From: Pseudobutyrivibrio sp. OR37
GTDB lineage: Bacteria; Bacillota; Clostridia; Lachnospirales; Lachnospiraceae
NCBI RefSeq assembly: GCF_900113655.1
Contig: NZ_FOQF01000006.1
Location: 1-64,000, forward strand
DNA: 64,000 bases
Direction: 5' to 3'
Below the pieces are notes generated by a model. The model made no database searches. It was not told the origin of the DNA and saw nothing but the letters and a program-made list of their open reading frames with translations. Of the stretch, positions 34,968 through 53,419 are shown in pieces (positions within the stretch are counted from its first letter, which is position 1; each line of letters starts with the position of its first letter). Both the position numbers and the translations under genes were made by a program.

Positions 34968-35070
34968 AATATATAAAACTGGATACAGACCAATATTTTT
35001 TAAAGAAAATCTTGCTCACAAAGCCAAGTTCTTGTTGATCTATCATTATAATAGCAGCAAGAATTGATGA

Positions 35071-35436
35071 CTTAAGTGTATAGTAAAAAAATGAATTTTC
35101 ACTTAACAAAAAATCCTGTCAAAGTTAAGTGAAAATGAGAAAATAATTTTTCCACTTAAAATCACAAATTCCTGTTAAGTTTTCTCAGAAGAAAAAATTT
35201 TTCACTTAACTTTTTTGCTCATTTTTGCGTTGATTAATACTAGAGTTAAGTGGAAATAGAGAATATCTATTTTTTACTTAACATGAATTTAAGTGGAAAA
35301 ATACATTTTGCTATAAAACTTAACTTTAGTTCAAAATATTTAATCAAAGTTAAGTGAAAATATTTTTTTCTTTTTCCCACTTAACCCATTTTCCGATTTT
35401 TAAGTGGTAAATGGAAAATGGGAAAATTCACTTAAT
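35071..35436. repeat. array of seven ~37-bp inverted-repeat units (GTTAAGTG...CACTTAAC)
   Basis: Half-sites related to GTTAAGTG start at 35071, 35124, 35174, 35245, 35288, 35349 and 35399. Inverted partners related to CACTTAAC start at 35100, 35153, 35203, 35275, 35317, 35378 and 35429. The distance inside each pair is constant at 29-30 bases, while the gap between units varies from 13 to 42. The best units extend to GTTAAGTGGAAA and TTTCCACTTAAC. No coding frame; not a CRISPR, since the bounded sequences are short and AT-rich. The rest of 34968-35448 shows nothing else. Confidence 0.9.
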
Positions 35437-40006: not shown

Positions 40007-41062
40007 TTAATCTCTAGTAGACGCTCTATAAATAAGATTTGTCTCTGTGTAAACAGTTCTGTAGTTCAAATCAGGCTGCTCGATACGTGATAACAGCAGA
40101 TTAGCTGCTGTGTAGCCGATGGCCTGTGAGTGAATGTGACAGGTGGTAAGAGCTGGTGTCATTACCTTTGATTCTGCTGAATCATCGAAGCCACAAATCA
40201 TCATATCATCTGGATAAGATTTGCCCATAATCTTAAGGCAGTTAACGATGTCGATTGCAATGAAATCGTTGGCGCAGATTATAAGCTCAGGAAGCTCATC
40301 CAGCTTTGAAAAAACGTTGAATAGATTTGAAAAATAATCCGGACCATGCTGATGAATATCTACAAGGCAGAATTTCTCATCTATTGGAAGGCCGTTAAGA
40401 TACATGGCATTTCTGAAAGCCATATATCTTTCGAAGAAGGAACGGCAGTGATTTGCCTGTCCTACGAACCCTATCTTTTTAACACCTCTAGCCTTCATAT
40501 TTGATATAAGCTGATAGATTCCAGAAGAATTGTCCATCATAAGGATGTCACCAGCTAGCTGTTTTTCATGGCTTTCCACAGGAGCATCTACAAATAGAAG
40601 TGGAAGATCAAGGCTTCCTAACATCTCACAATATTTCAGATTAAACATTTCAACGCAGATGATTCCAACGGTGCGTTCTTTGCTAAAGCTGGCTGGAAAG
40701 GTCAGGTCCCTAAGGTTGTCACTGGTGACTCTGTGCATGGTCATGCTGTAGCCGAGTCCTGTGATTTCGTGCTGAAATTTGTCTAGCATAGTAGATGCAA
40801 AGTGGGAATTATCAAGGAAGTTTCCTATGAAAAGAGCAAATTCCCCAGTTTTTAATGGCTCTTTTACAGTAGTGCTTCCTAATATATCAGAAACTGAATT
40901 AGCGTATGAAAATTGTTTGTACCCCATTTCCACAGCTTTTGCCAAAACCTTTTCTCTGGTGGCATCAGCAAGGATACCGGTATTGTTGATAGCCTTTGAT
41001 ACAGTGTTTCTAGAAACCCCTAATGCATCGGCAATATCTTGAATAGTAACTTTGTTTGCCAT
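40007..41062 (-). CDS. LacI-family transcriptional regulator (fructan locus 2)
   Basis: 351 residues, helix-turn-helix VTIQDIADALGVSRNTVSKA, then a sugar-sensing domain ending VMTPALTTCHIHSQAIGYTA. Clear paralogue of the regulator at 8035-9090: same length, similar over the whole chain and nearly the same recognition helix. It diverges from the importer/GH32/fructokinase operon, whose promoter carries GTGCAAACGCAC. It probably represses that operon and, through the shared operator, may cross-talk with locus 1. Confidence 0.92.
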   Translation of the reverse strand: MANKVTIQDIADALGVSRNTVSKAINNTGILADATREKVLAKAVEMGYKQFSYANSVSDILGSTTVKEPLKTGEFALFIGNFLDNSHFASTMLDKFQHEITGLGYSMTMHRVTSDNLRDLTFPASFSKERTVGIICVEMFNLKYCEMLGSLDLPLLFVDAPVESHEKQLAGDILMMDNSSGIYQLISNMKARGVKKIGFVGQANHCRSFFERYMAFRNAMYLNGLPIDEKFCLVDIHQHGPDYFSNLFNVFSKLDELPELIICANDFIAIDIVNCLKIMGKSYPDDMMICGFDDSAESKVMTPALTTCHIHSQAIGYTAANLLLSRIEQPDLNYRTVYTETNLIYRASTRD

Positions 41063-41237
41063 TATATTCTCCTATATAAAAATGTAAAATTAAAAATTTA
41101 TTTAATTCATTAGTAAAATATTACTGTCTAATTATAAAATGTAAAAATCTATTTGTCAAATGTAAAAATGTATGTGAAAATTGTTACAAAAACTCGCGGA
41201 AATACTTGTTATAATTTTACAAATAAACAAAAATACA

Positions 41238-41265
41238 TTGACACAAATGTAAAACATGGTATAGT
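41238..41265 (+). promoter_or_regulatory. promoter of the importer/GH32/fructokinase operon
   Basis: TTGACA (41238-41243), 16 bases, TATAGT (41260-41265). The operator at 41283 begins 18 bases past the end of the -10 box, matching locus 1 exactly. Confidence 0.75.
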
Positions 41266-41282
41266 TTATGCATAAACAAGTT

Positions 41283-41294
41283 GTGCAAACGCAC
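41283..41294. promoter_or_regulatory. LacI operator of fructan locus 2
   Basis: GTGCAAACGCAC within TTGTGCAAACGCACAA, arms TTGTGC/GCACAA. One base different from the locus 1 operator at 9295-9306. Confidence 0.72.
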
Positions 41295-41325
41295 AAATAA
41301 ATGTGACATATTTTGAGGAGGATTA

Positions 41326-42237
41326 ATGGAAAAGGAAGGAAAATTGCATAACACCCTTACTTACGTTATGCATCACTGGAGATTATATGTGTTCTTTTTA
41401 GGACCAGCACTATTACTTACAATCATATTTAAGTACCTGCCAATGGGCGGTATATTGATTGCTTTTGAAAAGTATAGCCCTTTTAAAGGCTTCTTTGGAA
41501 GTGAATGGGTAGGATTTGAATATTTCAAACAGTTCCTATCATCACCAGACTTTATGTCTTATCTTATTAACACCTTGAAGCTTAGTGTTTTCGGATTGTT
41601 GTGGGGCTTCCCAGTACCAATCATTTTGGCACTTCTTCTTAATAGAATAGAGAGCAGTAAGATAAAGCAGAAGATTCAGCTTGTTTTATACATGCCAAAC
41701 TTCATCTCAGTTATCGTACTTTGCGGTATGGTAAGAATTCTGCTTTCAGTTACAGGACCAGTTAATATGATGTTTAATACAACAATTAACTTCCTTACAT
41801 TGCCAGAAGCATTCAGACCAATCTACATTATAAGTGGTATCTGGCAGGGAGCTGGTTGGGCATCAATTATGTACACAGCATCACTTGCGAATGCCAGCCA
41901 GGAATTAAAGGAAGCAGCTCAGATCGACGGAGCAAATATCTTCCAGCAGATTAAGGCAGTTGAATGGCCAGCAATCAAGGATATGGTTGTTATCCAGTTC
42001 ATCTTACAGGCAGGTAACATCATGAGTATCGGATTCGAGAAGGCTTACGCACTTCAGACAGATCTTAACCTTGGTGCTTCGGAAATCATTGCAACCTATG
42101 TGTATAAGAAAGGTTTGCTTGACGGAAACTACAGTTATTCAACAGCGGTTGGTTTGTTCAACACAGTAATCAATCTCATCTTGCTTATTTCAGTTAACAA
42201 GATTGTAGAGAAGATGAATGATGGACAGGGACTGTAA
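41326..42237 (+). CDS. ABC importer permease, LplB type
   Basis: 303 residues with six membrane helices. Family start HHWRLYVFFLGPALLLTIIF, then KYLPMGGILIAFEKYSPFKG and the EAA loop ELKEAAQIDGANIFQQIKAV. Works with the YtcP-type permease and the LplA-type binding protein that follow. AGGAGG precedes the ATG. First gene of the five-gene operon to the fructokinase. LplB/YtcP systems usually import complex oligosaccharides; here fructo-oligosaccharides by context. Confidence 0.93.
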   Translation: MEKEGKLHNTLTYVMHHWRLYVFFLGPALLLTIIFKYLPMGGILIAFEKYSPFKGFFGSEWVGFEYFKQFLSSPDFMSYLINTLKLSVFGLLWGFPVPIILALLLNRIESSKIKQKIQLVLYMPNFISVIVLCGMVRILLSVTGPVNMMFNTTINFLTLPEAFRPIYIISGIWQGAGWASIMYTASLANASQELKEAAQIDGANIFQQIKAVEWPAIKDMVVIQFILQAGNIMSIGFEKAYALQTDLNLGASEIIATYVYKKGLLDGNYSYSTAVGLFNTVINLILLISVNKIVEKMNDGQGL

Positions 42238-42250
42238 TCAGGAGGATGAA

Positions 42251-43162
42251 ATGGAAACAAAGAAAAAGAAAAAAAGTGCGTTTTCCAGATATTCAGCTGG
42301 TGACAAAGCATTCTTAATTGTAGGATATTTGATTTTAGCATTATTCGTATTTGCGATAATCGTTCCTATGGTATATATCGTAATAGCATCCTTCATGGAT
42401 CCTATTACATTACAGAATACAGGTATTACATTTGACTTAGATAAATGGACTCTTACAGCTTACGAAAGAGTAATTTCCAATGGACAAATTTGGGTAGGCT
42501 TTAAAAATGCAGTGATTTATTCATTGGTGTTCACCTTCCTTTCAGTAGCTATAACAATGCTATGTGCCTACCCAATGTCTTTACAAGATTTTAAAGGTAG
42601 AAAATTCTTTAACGTAATTTTCATGATTACAATGTTCTTTGGTGGTGGTTTGATTCCTACATACTTGCTCATCAGTAACTTAGGCTTACTTGATAGCATG
42701 TGGGCAGTAGTTCTTCCTGGAGCATTCTCAGTATGGAACATGATTATTGCACGTACATATTTTAGAGGAATCCCAGGTGAGCTTAGAGAAGCAGCTGAGG
42801 TTGACGGCGCAAACGAGCTTACATTATTCTTCAGAATACTTCTTCCAGTATGTACACCTGTTATCGCAGTACTTTGCTTGTGGCAGTTCGTAGGAATGTG
42901 GAACAGCTACTTCGATGCTATGATTTACTTAAACACAGCATCTAAGCAGCCACTTCAGCTTGTACTTAGAGCTATCCTTATTCAGAACCAGCCAGATGCA
43001 GGTATGATTGCTGATATGCAGTCTACAGCTGAAAGAGCAAGACTTGCAGAGCTACTTAAGTATTCAACAATTATTATTTCAAGTTTACCACTTCTTGTAA
43101 TGTATCCATTCTTCCAGAAGTACTTCGATGCTGGAATTATGGTAGGTTCAGTAAAGGGCTAA
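42251..43162 (+). CDS. ABC importer permease, YtcP type
   Basis: About 303 residues from the ATG at 42251, chosen for GGAGG at 42241-42245; the frame extends upstream into the previous gene. Six membrane helices, EAA loop ELREAAEVDGANELTLFFRI, and the C-terminal QKYFDAGIMVGSVKG typical of YtcP. Partner of the LplB-type permease. Confidence 0.93.
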   Translation: METKKKKKSAFSRYSAGDKAFLIVGYLILALFVFAIIVPMVYIVIASFMDPITLQNTGITFDLDKWTLTAYERVISNGQIWVGFKNAVIYSLVFTFLSVAITMLCAYPMSLQDFKGRKFFNVIFMITMFFGGGLIPTYLLISNLGLLDSMWAVVLPGAFSVWNMIIARTYFRGIPGELREAAEVDGANELTLFFRILLPVCTPVIAVLCLWQFVGMWNSYFDAMIYLNTASKQPLQLVLRAILIQNQPDAGMIADMQSTAERARLAELLKYSTIIISSLPLLVMYPFFQKYFDAGIMVGSVKG

Positions 43163-43235: not shown

Positions 43236-44900
43236 ATGAAAATGAAAAGCGCAAAGAGAGTTGTTGCAGCAGCTCTAGCCGTAACAATGGCATCTACAAT
43301 GTTTGCCGGTTGCGGTTCAAAGGGAAACAATGCAAGTAACGCTGATAAGGTTGATATGGAAAACCTTACATTCCCACTTGCAGAGACAGTTACTATTACA
43401 GGTACAACAAGCTATCCTGTAGGAACTGAAGAAGATCCAAACAAGCGTACAATCTTCAAGAGATTAGAGGAAGAGACAAACGTACATGTTGATTGGACAG
43501 CAATTTCATCAGACCAGTGGGGTGACAAGATTTCACTTAACATGGCTAATGCAAACACACTTACAGATTTCGTATTTACAGCAGGCTTCGGCGACAACGA
43601 CTTAATCAGATATGCTGACCAGGGCGTTATCGTTCCAGTTGAAGAATACATTGATAACTACATGCCAAACCTTAAGGCAGTATTTGACAAGTACCCAGAG
43701 TATCGCACAATGTGTGAGGATGCTGATGGACACATCTGGGCACTTCCATGGATTGAGCAGCTTGGTTCAGAAAAGACTGCTATCCAGACAGTTGGTAACA
43801 ACATGACATTCATCAACCAGAAATGGTTAGATTTCCTTGGACTTGAGACACCAACAACAGTTGATGAATTCGAGCAGGTATTACTTGCTTTCCAGGAGCA
43901 CGCTCCAGAGCTTCAGAAGGAATTCGGTATTGATGGTGACATCATTCCAATGTCTTGCATCGTAAACGACCAGGATCCAAACCTTCTTATCAACGGTTTT
44001 GGCGATGGTATCGGTGATGTTGATATGGGACAGCACATTGCAGTTACAGATGACAAGAAGGTTGTTTGTACAGCAACAACAGATGGCTTCAGAAAGGGTG
44101 TTGAATGGTTACACAAGCTCTACGCTGAAGGACTTATCGATCCAGAGTGCTTTACACAGGATTGGTCAACATACGTTGCAAAGGGTAAGTCACACAGATA
44201 TGGCGTTTGCTTCACATGGGATGTAGCTAACATCGATAACATTCAGGACTATGTTCCACTTAAGGCTCTTAAGGCTGATACAGTAAATGTAACACCTCAG
44301 AACGGTTCATTTACATCAGGTTTTGATAGAGGTCGTTGTGTTGTAACAAGTGTATGCAAGAACCCAGCTTTCGTTTGCGCATGGCTTGATAAGATGTATG
44401 ATCCATTCCAGTCTCCACAGAACAACTGGGGAACATACGGTGAAGATGATGATTTCGATATCTTCGAGCTTAGCGAGAACGCAGATGGCGAGAAGATGCT
44501 TAAGCATGCACCACTTGGCGATGCTTCTCCAGTAGAAGTTCGTGAGGCTGAGTGCGTTGGTGGTCCTCTTGCAGTACTTGATGAGTACTACGGAAAGTAT
44601 GTAACATGCCCAGATGATGCACAGTATCGTCTTGATTGGATCAAGGATTACTACACAGATGATATGCACTGCAAGTATGTTTACCCACGCGTATTTATGT
44701 CAGCAGAAGACACAGAAAAGCTTTCAGCAATCCAGACAGATTTAGTATCATACTTAAACTCAAGCAAGGCTGAGTTCATCAGAGATGGTATTACAGATGA
44801 TTCATGGAATGCATACATTAACCAGGTTGATAGCTACGGCTTAGACCAGTACCTTGAAATCTATCAGAAGTATTTCGATGATTTCTATTCAGGAAAATAA
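43236..44900 (+). CDS. extracellular sugar-binding lipoprotein, LplA type
   Basis: 554 residues. Lipobox FAGCGSKG follows a basic N-terminus. Large cluster-type binding protein (LplA/family 1) of the length usual for LplB/YtcP partners, with GYGPDW-like segments absent but NTLTDFVFTAG, MCEDADGHIWALPW and the C-terminal YLEIYQKYFDDFY present. A strong TAGGAGGAG site and position after the two permeases suggest high expression. Probably binds fructo-oligosaccharides released at the surface. Confidence 0.9.
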   Translation: MKMKSAKRVVAAALAVTMASTMFAGCGSKGNNASNADKVDMENLTFPLAETVTITGTTSYPVGTEEDPNKRTIFKRLEEETNVHVDWTAISSDQWGDKISLNMANANTLTDFVFTAGFGDNDLIRYADQGVIVPVEEYIDNYMPNLKAVFDKYPEYRTMCEDADGHIWALPWIEQLGSEKTAIQTVGNNMTFINQKWLDFLGLETPTTVDEFEQVLLAFQEHAPELQKEFGIDGDIIPMSCIVNDQDPNLLINGFGDGIGDVDMGQHIAVTDDKKVVCTATTDGFRKGVEWLHKLYAEGLIDPECFTQDWSTYVAKGKSHRYGVCFTWDVANIDNIQDYVPLKALKADTVNVTPQNGSFTSGFDRGRCVVTSVCKNPAFVCAWLDKMYDPFQSPQNNWGTYGEDDDFDIFELSENADGEKMLKHAPLGDASPVEVREAECVGGPLAVLDEYYGKYVTCPDDAQYRLDWIKDYYTDDMHCKYVYPRVFMSAEDTEKLSAIQTDLVSYLNSSKAEFIRDGITDDSWNAYINQVDSYGLDQYLEIYQKYFDDFYSGK

Positions 44901-44927
44901 TATTAAATAGTAAGGAAGAGAAGATAT

Positions 44928-46454
44928 ATGAACAGTCAAACTTTGAGAGAGGCTAGAAAATACGAGGAGGCCTTTGAAAAGTTAATTCCAGCGGAGCAAA
45001 GACCAAAATTTCATTTGTCTCCACGAGTAGGTTGGATGAACGATCCAAACGGATTTTGCATCTATAACGATCAGTACCATTTGTTTTATCAGTACCATCC
45101 ATATGATGCACATTGGGGACCAATGCATTGGGGTCATGCAGTAAGTAAGGATTTGCTCCACTGGGAGTTCCTTCCTGTAGCACTTGCACCAGATGAGTAT
45201 TACGATAAGGATGGCGTTTTCTCAGGAAGCGCCATTACCTTAAAGGATGGAAGACATTTGCTCATATACACGGGAGTTATGAAGCGCACTGTGGAAAATG
45301 GACAGATGAAGGAATTTCAGACACAGTGTATTGCTATAGGCGATGGCCTAGATTATGAAAAATATGAAAATAATCCGGTAATCAATTCGGATTTAATTCC
45401 AGAGGGTGCCAGCAAGACAGACTTCAGAGACCCAAAGATTTGGGAAAAGGCTGATGGAACCTACAGATGTCTTGTAGCAAACCGTCCAGCAGATGGAAGT
45501 GGTCAGTTACTCTTATTCAAGAGTGACGACTGCATCCACTGGGATTTTGAAAAAGTTTTTGCTGAAAATCAGAGACGCTATGGTCTCATGTGGGAGTGCC
45601 CAGATTTCTTTACTTTAGATGGAAAGGGCGTACTTCTCACTAGTCCACAGGATATGCTCCCAGAAGGCTTTGAATTCCACAATGGTAACGGTAACCTTTG
45701 CATTATTGGCTCTTATGATGATGCTACAGATACCTTTACAGAGGAAAATGTTCAGGCTGTTGATTACGGAATCGATTTCTACGCTATGCAAACAATCCTT
45801 ACAAAGGATGGCAGACGTGTAATGATTGGCTGGATGCAGAACTGGGATACAGCAGGTGCTCATGATGCTAGAGAGCCATGGTTTGGTCAGATGTCACTTC
45901 CTAGAGAAGTTACAATCAAGGACGGCAGATTATGTCAGTGGCCTATAAAAGAACTTGACGACATGCGTACAAATAAGGTAGAGTACAAAGATGCAGTTGT
46001 TGAAGCAACAAAGGACCTTAAGGATAGTGATAGCGAATCTATCACAGGTGGTGTTTCATTCGACGGAATCAAGGGTAGATGCCTTGATATGGAGCTTGAG
46101 GTTAAGCCAAAGGATCTTGACGCAATGTTCGACAGATTTGTTATTTCAATCGCTGCAGATGACAAATTCCATACAGATATTGTACTTCGTCCAAAGGAAA
46201 ATATTGCAAAGATTGACAGAAAGTTCTCTGGAAGTAGACGCGCAATAGTGCATCAAAGACGTGCTCATATTCCATGGACAGATGAGACAATAAAGGTTAG
46301 AATTGTCATGGATAGATACAGCATGGAGGTATTCTTTGAGGAAGGTAAGTATGTTATGACAGCATCACTTCCAACAGATGTATCCTGCGACGGAATCTAT
46401 TTCAATACTAACGAGGATGCTATCGTAAGCATCACAAAATATGATTTAAATTAA
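44928..46454 (+). CDS. scrB: cytoplasmic GH32 beta-fructosidase (sucrose/fructan hydrolase)
   Basis: 508 residues without a signal peptide. GH32 catalytic trio: nucleophile Asp39 in WMNDPNGFCIYND, Asp168 in DFRDPKIW and acid/base Glu223 in MWECPDFF. A C-terminal beta-sandwich starts near 350, with MDRYSMEVFFEEGKYVMT. Cleaves sucrose, sucrose 6-phosphate or short fructans to fructose. The importer in the same operon is an ABC type without phosphorylation, so unphosphorylated oligosaccharides are the likely substrate. AGGAAGAG before the ATG. Confidence 0.93.
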   Translation: MNSQTLREARKYEEAFEKLIPAEQRPKFHLSPRVGWMNDPNGFCIYNDQYHLFYQYHPYDAHWGPMHWGHAVSKDLLHWEFLPVALAPDEYYDKDGVFSGSAITLKDGRHLLIYTGVMKRTVENGQMKEFQTQCIAIGDGLDYEKYENNPVINSDLIPEGASKTDFRDPKIWEKADGTYRCLVANRPADGSGQLLLFKSDDCIHWDFEKVFAENQRRYGLMWECPDFFTLDGKGVLLTSPQDMLPEGFEFHNGNGNLCIIGSYDDATDTFTEENVQAVDYGIDFYAMQTILTKDGRRVMIGWMQNWDTAGAHDAREPWFGQMSLPREVTIKDGRLCQWPIKELDDMRTNKVEYKDAVVEATKDLKDSDSESITGGVSFDGIKGRCLDMELEVKPKDLDAMFDRFVISIAADDKFHTDIVLRPKENIAKIDRKFSGSRRAIVHQRRAHIPWTDETIKVRIVMDRYSMEVFFEEGKYVMTASLPTDVSCDGIYFNTNEDAIVSITKYDLN

Positions 46455-53120: not shown

Positions 53121-53419
53121 TACTATCTAGTCAAAGGTTTTTTATGTGAGATAGTAGTGCTTGAATGGATATTTACTATCTGGATTGCATTTTTTTGTTA
53201 CAGATAGTAAATGATTATGGTGTTATTACTATCTGTATAAAGATTTTATTATACAGGTAGTAATTGTTAATTAATGTGTTACTATCTATTTTTTGTTTTT
53301 CACGTCAGATAGTAATTATGCTATATCATACTACTATCTACTGACAAATATTTTTTGTAGATAGTAAGTTTAAGAATTTACACTACTATCTGAAATTGTT
53401 TTTTTATTGTTAGGTAGTA
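53121..53419. repeat. periodic array of 12 alternating half-sites (TACTATCT / AGATAGTA)
   Basis: TACTATCT starts at 53121, 53174, 53227, 53280, 53332 and 53384; the inverse AGATAGTA (or AGGTAGTA) starts at 53149, 53202, 53255, 53307, 53359 and 53412. The period is 52-53 bases throughout, with 19-20 bases inside each TACTATCT-AGATAGTA pair and exactly 17 between pairs. The bases between sites are AT-rich, differ from unit to unit and often hold a T-run. No ORF. The remainder of 53045-53452 shows nothing else. Confidence 0.93.

Follow-up and report, generated by a model that had tools for sequence, protein, structure and literature searches.

The array of short inverted sequences located at positions 53121–53419 of the analyzed Pseudobutyrivibrio sp. 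OR37 DNA (the window, a stretch of 64,000 nucleotides) is probably a solitary DNA-level array of a family of ~263-amino acid nuclease-like proteins, and part of a selfish mobile system composed of arrays and nuclease. A previously unexplained repeat is thereby linked to a multicopy family for which NCBIfam has no name (members scanned) and Pfam no assignment (three members scanned). Apart from MazE and MazF, genes were named by reading the sequence.

Structure of the Array in the Window

The original prediction described twelve alternating half-sites, TACTATCT and AGRTAGTA, and all 12 were found; they form six inverted pairs with a period of 52–53 bp, and the array as a whole has no assigned strand. 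The forward half-sites F1 to F6, all TACTATCT, are in the + strand at 53121–53128, 53174–53181, 53227–53234, 53280–53287, 53332–53339, and 53384–53391. The half-sites in the − strand read AGATAGTA at R1 (53149–53156), R2 (53202–53209), R4 (53307–53314), and R5 (53359–53366), and AGGTAGTA at R3 (53255–53262), where the A/G position is tolerated, and at R6 (53412–53419). The proposed spacing was also correct: the F-to-R distances are 20, 20, 20, 19, 19, and 20 bp, and the R-to-F distance is 17 bp in five out of five cases. The 8-mer by itself is only mildly enriched in the whole window (88 one-mismatch matches of the TACTATCT type versus 69 expected); the signal resides in the order and spacing of the half-sites. 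Chance, which the original prediction had named as a possible refutation, was excluded by a shuffling check. A word-free scan for chains of a word and its reverse complement detected 17 arrays, including that in the window, in 837,139 bases of the same genome (contigs chosen for known arrays or gene copies) and 0 in one Markov-shuffled copy.

The window includes a second solitary array, with the word TTAAGT/ACTTAA and no assigned strand, at 35072–35435, of which the word-free scan detected only 35289–35435. Its F-to-R start distance is 27–28 and the R-to-F distance is irregular (15–44). A gene copy with a TTAAGT-type word upstream, matching this array, is present on contig C22. The gene located just after the second array presumably codes for a CsoR-type copper repressor.

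The MazEF pair noticed next to the first array is real, as shown by the Pfam matches PF04014 (MazE, E 9.6e-12) and PF02452 (MazF, E 6.6e-9). No family could be assigned to the 94-amino acid neighbor protein in searches of Pfam and PHROGs. Its gene is kept in 16 of the 18 genus genomes searched, and in only two of these 16 are the array and mazEF found alongside.

Distribution of the Word and Anatomy of the Units

The pattern search proposed for the organism's own genome produced 33 forward and 20 reverse matches to the TACTATCT-type pair, distributed over seven contigs that include the one carrying the window, while the reversed control produced none. When the search was extended to related bacteria, as had also been proposed, pairs were found in 14 of 29 genomes of the genus versus 0 of 32 others (61 genomes). 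Genomes G014 and G028 have a single pair match per strand, no more than the reversed control gives in some genomes. A three-half-site pattern run against genomes of 84,980 species identified 36 stretches, all of them in Pseudobutyrivibrio. The same pattern found 0 stretches in a viral contig collection, and a phage origin of the arrays was rejected on this basis.

The arrays that were read are composed of very regular units. Among 229 distinct units, the F..R spacer is 19 bp in 188, 20 bp in 40, and 21 bp in one; among 195, the R..F spacer is 17 bp in 190, 7 bp in three that belong to related arrays, and 16 bp in two. In those related arrays (L060, L064, and L071) one 17-bp spacer is shortened to 7 bp, about one helical turn. 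The half-site consensus is YTACTAYCTR, and the center of the 19–20-bp spacer is nearly all A/T. An IS3-like insertion, identified by reading, apparently splits one TACTATCT array between the end of contig C15 (L007) and the start of contig C51 (L012).

A Multicopy Gene Family with Its Own Arrays

A 263-amino acid gene on contig C33 (44473–45261) is flanked by two arrays whose word matches that of the window array. The family is multicopy: 28 of the 29 genomes of the genus have between one and 11 matches each, and matches were also found in four of the 32 other genomes. The paralogues are flanked by arrays that follow the same plan and have different words, and once these appeared the idea that a single nuclease gene partners all arrays was dropped.

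The linkage between gene and array was examined at 100 gene loci, 20 of them returned by the search and 80 picked by their place among the matches listed, with the flanks inspected only afterwards; three are from other genera. A chain of at least five alternating half-sites was present at 73 loci (72 upstream and eight downstream; four chains have exactly five), while the longest chain in 400 Markov-shuffled flanks was four. The remaining 27 loci had no chain of at least five in this exact-seed scan, from which degenerate arrays escape. The median end of the arrays is at −65.5 bp relative to the start codon, for which the farthest in-frame ATG was chosen, and in 28 of 54 lineages the end lies 5–80 bp before it. 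Among members from further genera, obtained in a search of 398 genomes, five of nine full-length proteins have an upstream chain of 8–14 half-sites, and the four loci that match the nuclease part only gave no array chain.

The TACTATCT-type gene and the pairs tend to co-occur. Pairs were found in all seven genomes that carry the gene and in seven of the 22 that lack it, with two of the latter seven at control level. Genomes G006, G023, and G025 have at least eight pairs per strand but lack a close copy of the gene (identities of at best 41, 45, and 39%, respectively). For another word, TTACAGTG..CACTGTAA, a strict search of its own genome gave no match, even to its own gene-linked array, which has degenerate sites; this result is therefore uninformative about solitary copies. 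At one other locus, in genome G000, a family member with no detected array (C55:39996–40796) directly precedes a gene at 40797–42659 that reads like a RecQ-type helicase (L247, L248).

Domains of the Family Protein

The protein has a variable N-terminal domain followed by a predicted PD-(D/E)XK-type nuclease domain. Residues E160, D191, and E206, with P190-D191, are invariant in 93 out of 93 family proteins, in agreement with the catalytic acidic residues in a restriction-like fold that characterize PD-(D/E)XK enzymes. The (D/E)xK motif lacks its lysine at the usual place, where F or L follows E206-H207 (E206-H207-F/L208), and nuclease activity is therefore uncertain; K158 is invariant and might be a stand-in for this lysine. 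The C-terminal domain is homologous to that of the PADLOC family PDC-S68 (E 1.1e-24; three members, E 7e-23 to 1e-28). Foldseek searches produced weak matches to the nucleases Bax1, DrdV, and MunI (best E 1.1e-3), and PHROGs gave weak matches to endonucleases and Holliday-junction resolvases (best E 9.7e-5). The AlphaFold models are of high confidence, with mean pLDDT values of 91.5 for the whole protein and 93.7 for the N-terminal part, and have the order helix, three-stranded sheet, long helix, nuclease. No DNA-binding fold was found with the N-terminal model in Foldseek at E ≤0.001; the best match of this domain alone was a prefoldin-like helix-sheet-helix at E 0.1.

The arrays that accompany these proteins made it possible to compare words and proteins. 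Sixty-nine loci that combine an upstream array with a full-length protein were grouped into 54 protein clusters. Proteins that are more alike also tend to have more similar words (Mantel r 0.44; 0 of 5000 permutations as extreme, in permutations that ignore the tree). In partial Mantel analyses, which also used no tree, the word follows the N-terminal part given the C-terminal part (r 0.38, 0 of 2000 permutations), and does not follow the C-terminal part given the N-terminal one (r −0.01, p 0.66). At the level of sequence these comparisons show that the private words of each lineage follow the N-terminal and not the C-terminal half of the protein.

Helical Phasing

The original prediction noted that the period places all sites of one orientation on the same side of the DNA, and this phasing is borne out across many arrays. 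The median periods of the 54 lineages cluster at 51–54 bp (39 lineages), 62–65 bp (nine), 73–74 bp (three), and 42 bp (one), and the two remaining medians, at 57.5, come from arrays that mix 52- and 63-bp units. There is no weight at 44–48, 55–60, or 66–72 bp. The modes, at about 42, 52, 63, and 73 bp, fit a step of ~10.7 bp, which shows that the periods match the whole turns expected of B-DNA. Such phasing is what a protein that needs one face of the DNA would require.

Departures in spacing within arrays point in the same direction. Since the chain rule of the first scan favored jumps of 10/11, the departures were retested under a rule that accepts every offset between −16 and +16. Few lineages have departures of more than 4, and most of these are of 10/11: +11 in seven lineages and +10, −10, and −11 in one each; the off-series values +9, −8, −16, and +16 were found in one lineage each. 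Two downstream chains outside the set of 54 lineages, L079 (period ~70) and L133 (~90), are off the helical series.

Turnover and Conservation of Solitary Arrays

Six of the 17 arrays detected in the census of the 837,139 bases are at gene copies and the others are either solitary or close to a fragment of a gene; one, at C33:129263, is weak. Five of the six full-length genes in the same contigs have an array. For four of the solitary-array words a gene with a matching word is present in the genome, and for the word GGTATA no matching gene was seen there. At the junction between genes read as purN and purD, 23 genomes of the genus could be compared, of which five have an array, one has a single-pair remnant, and 17 have neither. 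This comparison shows that solitary arrays are lineage-specific, being present or absent between relatives. In some relatives that have no array at this junction (L261, L262, and L266; L264 and L268) there are other inserts of ~190–210 bp, palindromic by reading, as if the spot accepts different repeats.

The contrast between conserved half-sites and variable filler, noted in the original prediction, was confirmed when 11 array pairs, matched by common filler or neighbors, were compared. The differing bases were 22/1032 in half-sites (2.1%), 267/2144 in filler (12.5%), and 141/1189 in the 60-bp flanks (half-sites versus filler, p 1e-25, with bases treated as independent); in three of the 11 pairs the flanks are less diverged than the filler. 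The array orthologous to that in the window, found in P. ruminis AD2017, differs at 0/95 half-site, 9/201 filler, and 2/90 flank bases. The filler of the L037 array is 87–90% like that of L038 and L061 and there is no flank similarity in those pairs. L037 and L013, which belong to one filler family, have 62 bp of flank in common at 90%, and therefore the case for relocation of an array alone is only moderate to weak. Target-site duplications and transposition intermediates were not noticed among the arrays compared here. L058 retains a single array but lacks the gene, the other flanking array, and one unit, which means that arrays can outlive the gene.

Of 23 solitary loci considered for orientation, two are at contig edges and 21 could be placed: 14 between tandem genes, six between convergent genes, and one between divergent genes. 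The background, gaps of at least 100 bp from one genome processed with a simple ORF caller, consists of 163 tandem, 19 convergent, and 45 divergent cases (convergent versus divergent, p 0.006; 0.016 without one doubtful row). Relative to this background, divergent gaps are scarce among the sites of solitary arrays and convergent gaps are over-represented.

Alternative Explanations

The original prediction offered two possibilities, a protein-binding array or a transcript that folds into serial hairpins. The former is supported by the phasing, the conserved half-sites, and the existence of a candidate protein; the latter is not supported by the units taken together. A transcribed hairpin array, or a set of dual-spacer guide RNAs like those of TIGR-Tas, has a formal likeness in its favor, namely short alternating repeats and fixed variable spacers beside a nuclease gene. 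In addition, inverted half-sites can pair, and in the window array pairing extends further in unit 2 (12 nt, 100% complementary) and unit 3 (16-nt arms, 94%). Nonetheless, the arms do not covary. At the variable sixth base of 222 units (seven other combinations were left out) the two arms read T-A in 128, T-G in 46, C-A in 32, and C-G in 16, which is consistent with independence (Fisher p 0.37; ~35 C-A expected from the margins), and the base just inside the half-site leans towards the combinations A-C and G-T. This lack of compensatory change makes a DNA-level binding array likelier than RNA hairpins. The periods follow the turn of B-DNA, and the filler is common to orthologous arrays and evolves at about the rate of the flanks. 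In Rfam nothing in the window array reached a gathering score or appeared otherwise up to E 1; a sub-threshold PhrS match (14.8 bits versus a gathering score of 37) is outside the array. TIGR spacers are of ~9 nt and Tas proteins have a Nop domain (PMC12045711). The RNA explanation is thus very unlikely, and the arrays are most likely DNA-level protein-binding arrays, as judged from these patterns.

If the arrays bind a protein, the latter could be a transcription regulator and the solitary arrays operators of the adjacent genes. The position of the gene-linked arrays upstream of their genes and the conservation of the solitary half-sites agree with such a host regulon, but solitary loci seldom fall in divergent gaps (1 of 21) and comparatively often fall between convergent genes (6 of 21), which does not support them as promoter operators, 17 of 23 relatives do without the array at one junction, the neighboring genes look unrelated to each other by reading, and a plain regulator would need no invariant nuclease-motif residues; we consider this explanation unlikely. 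Less likely still is a chromosome organizer or anchoring site similar to those of ParB or MatP. Several DNA-phased arrays per genome with conserved half-sites, some between convergent genes, would suit such a role; however, about half of the genomes of the genus are without the TACTATCT-type word, whether a given junction holds an array differs between genomes, and one to 11 family members with different words per genome are unlike one dedicated organizer. Presence or absence between close relatives also argues against an essential centromere-like site. A comparably doubtful proposal is that the arrays are self-marks or decoys that sequester or license a defense nuclease acting on incoming DNA, which would accord with the C-terminal domain being common to PDC-S68, a candidate defense family, and with the many diversified paralogues. 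The proximity of the array to mazE (it is upstream, at a distance of 76 bp if the longest possible ORF is assumed) raised the option of an operator of the mazEF operon. This option is hardly credible and was set aside: arrays with the same word stand elsewhere, next to many unrelated genes, and their other flanking ORFs, save for those of the P. ruminis AD2017 orthologue (L041), are not mazE/mazF-like by eye. For the same reason mazEF does not appear to belong to the array system.

A Possible Mechanism

The reading of arrays and genes as a selfish, REPIN-like system is favored for several reasons: arrays are gained and lost between relatives, they seldom occupy divergent gaps, as far as we could see they share no gene partner, and the nuclease-motif residues are conserved; the conserved half-sites of solitary arrays could equally reflect a host function. 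The C33 protein (44473–45261) would bind the window array in trans, probably sitting as dimers on the inverted pairs, with the dimers stacked on the same side of the double helix. The array linked to each gene may also serve as an autoregulatory operator. Nicks or breaks made in the arrays or close to them, followed by repair, would then copy them into tolerant intergenic gaps, and arrays and gene would constitute a mobile system in which the solitary arrays are the non-autonomous members. We infer multimerization, direct binding, and autoregulation of the family protein from sequence features.

Comparison with Known Systems

The closest system in behavior is REPIN/RAYT, whose protein is unrelated. 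A genome has several families of REPIN words, every one of them clustered next to a protein gene of its own; REPINs consist of inverted pairs with conserved ends and less conserved spacers, their copies are scattered through extragenic space, and compensatory changes in the hairpins are called common (PMC3116915). The system described here shares the word families located beside their own gene, the inverted pairs, the combination of conserved ends with less conserved spacers, and the scattered extragenic copies. It differs in that the protein is of the PD-(D/E)XK type and not a tyrosine transposase (the HUH domain is absent from the Pfam matches of three family members), the half-sites are 8–10 bp instead of 16-mer REPs, the periods follow DNA turns, most arrays have 6–24 sites rather than being doublets, and there are no REPIN-style compensatory changes. 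It is an even call whether we are looking at a new class of element, a nuclease-based double-stranded DNA counterpart of REPIN/RAYT in which a fast-evolving N-terminal domain reads a private phased array. The chances seem equally divided as to whether each protein drives the copying and maintenance, across the genome, of the arrays that belong to it.

The likeness to the RNA-guided TIGR-Tas systems (PMC12045711) lies in alternating short repeats, fixed spacer lengths, an adjacent effector gene, and words that vary by locus. The arrays studied here differ in having inverted DNA half-sites with helix phasing and spacers of 19/20 and 17, where TIGR-Tas has two alternating repeats of 8–12 nt separated by ~9 nt, and no Nop domain was found in the Pfam scan of three family members. 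The homology to PDC-S68 is limited to the C-terminal nuclease domain, the only region matched in those long proteins (profiles of ~1200 positions). In contrast to CRISPR, which is defined by long conserved direct repeats, spacers that are unique, and cas genes, only 8–10 bp are conserved and the filler is common to orthologous arrays, and we do not class the arrays as such. Iterons, ParB-parS, and ParR-parC are arrays of repeated protein sites in DNA; those described here are instead scattered and lineage-specific, each paralogue has a word of its own, and the protein includes a nuclease domain.

None of the titles and abstracts listed in searches of the open PMC literature describes this array-nuclease system. 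The dozens of natural protein-word pairs could permit the code by which an undescribed domain reads DNA to be deduced from sequence and put to a direct test. If the arrays spread with the nuclease, they would represent a mobile repeat that resembles none of the transposase-based ones known to us, and the question of why such repeats are kept would become testable in a culturable rumen bacterium.

Other Repeats and Loci near the Arrays

Eight related arrays (L010, L011, L013, L038, L042, L056, L061, and L067) border loci coding for very long or Rhs-like proteins. The same loci have rows of small ORFs and are polymorphic-toxin-like by reading, and L013 has a truncated copy of a neighboring gene. 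Another repeat, ~127 bp long and containing several inverted segments as judged by reading, is found near arrays at different loci: window positions 34977–35035, C48:78828–78954, L037, L050, L063, L065, and L054. Initially taken as an array terminus, it is now treated as a separate repeat. Identity between loci is up to 100%, the window holds only part of it (84% over 61 bp), and 837 kb contained one full and two partial copies.
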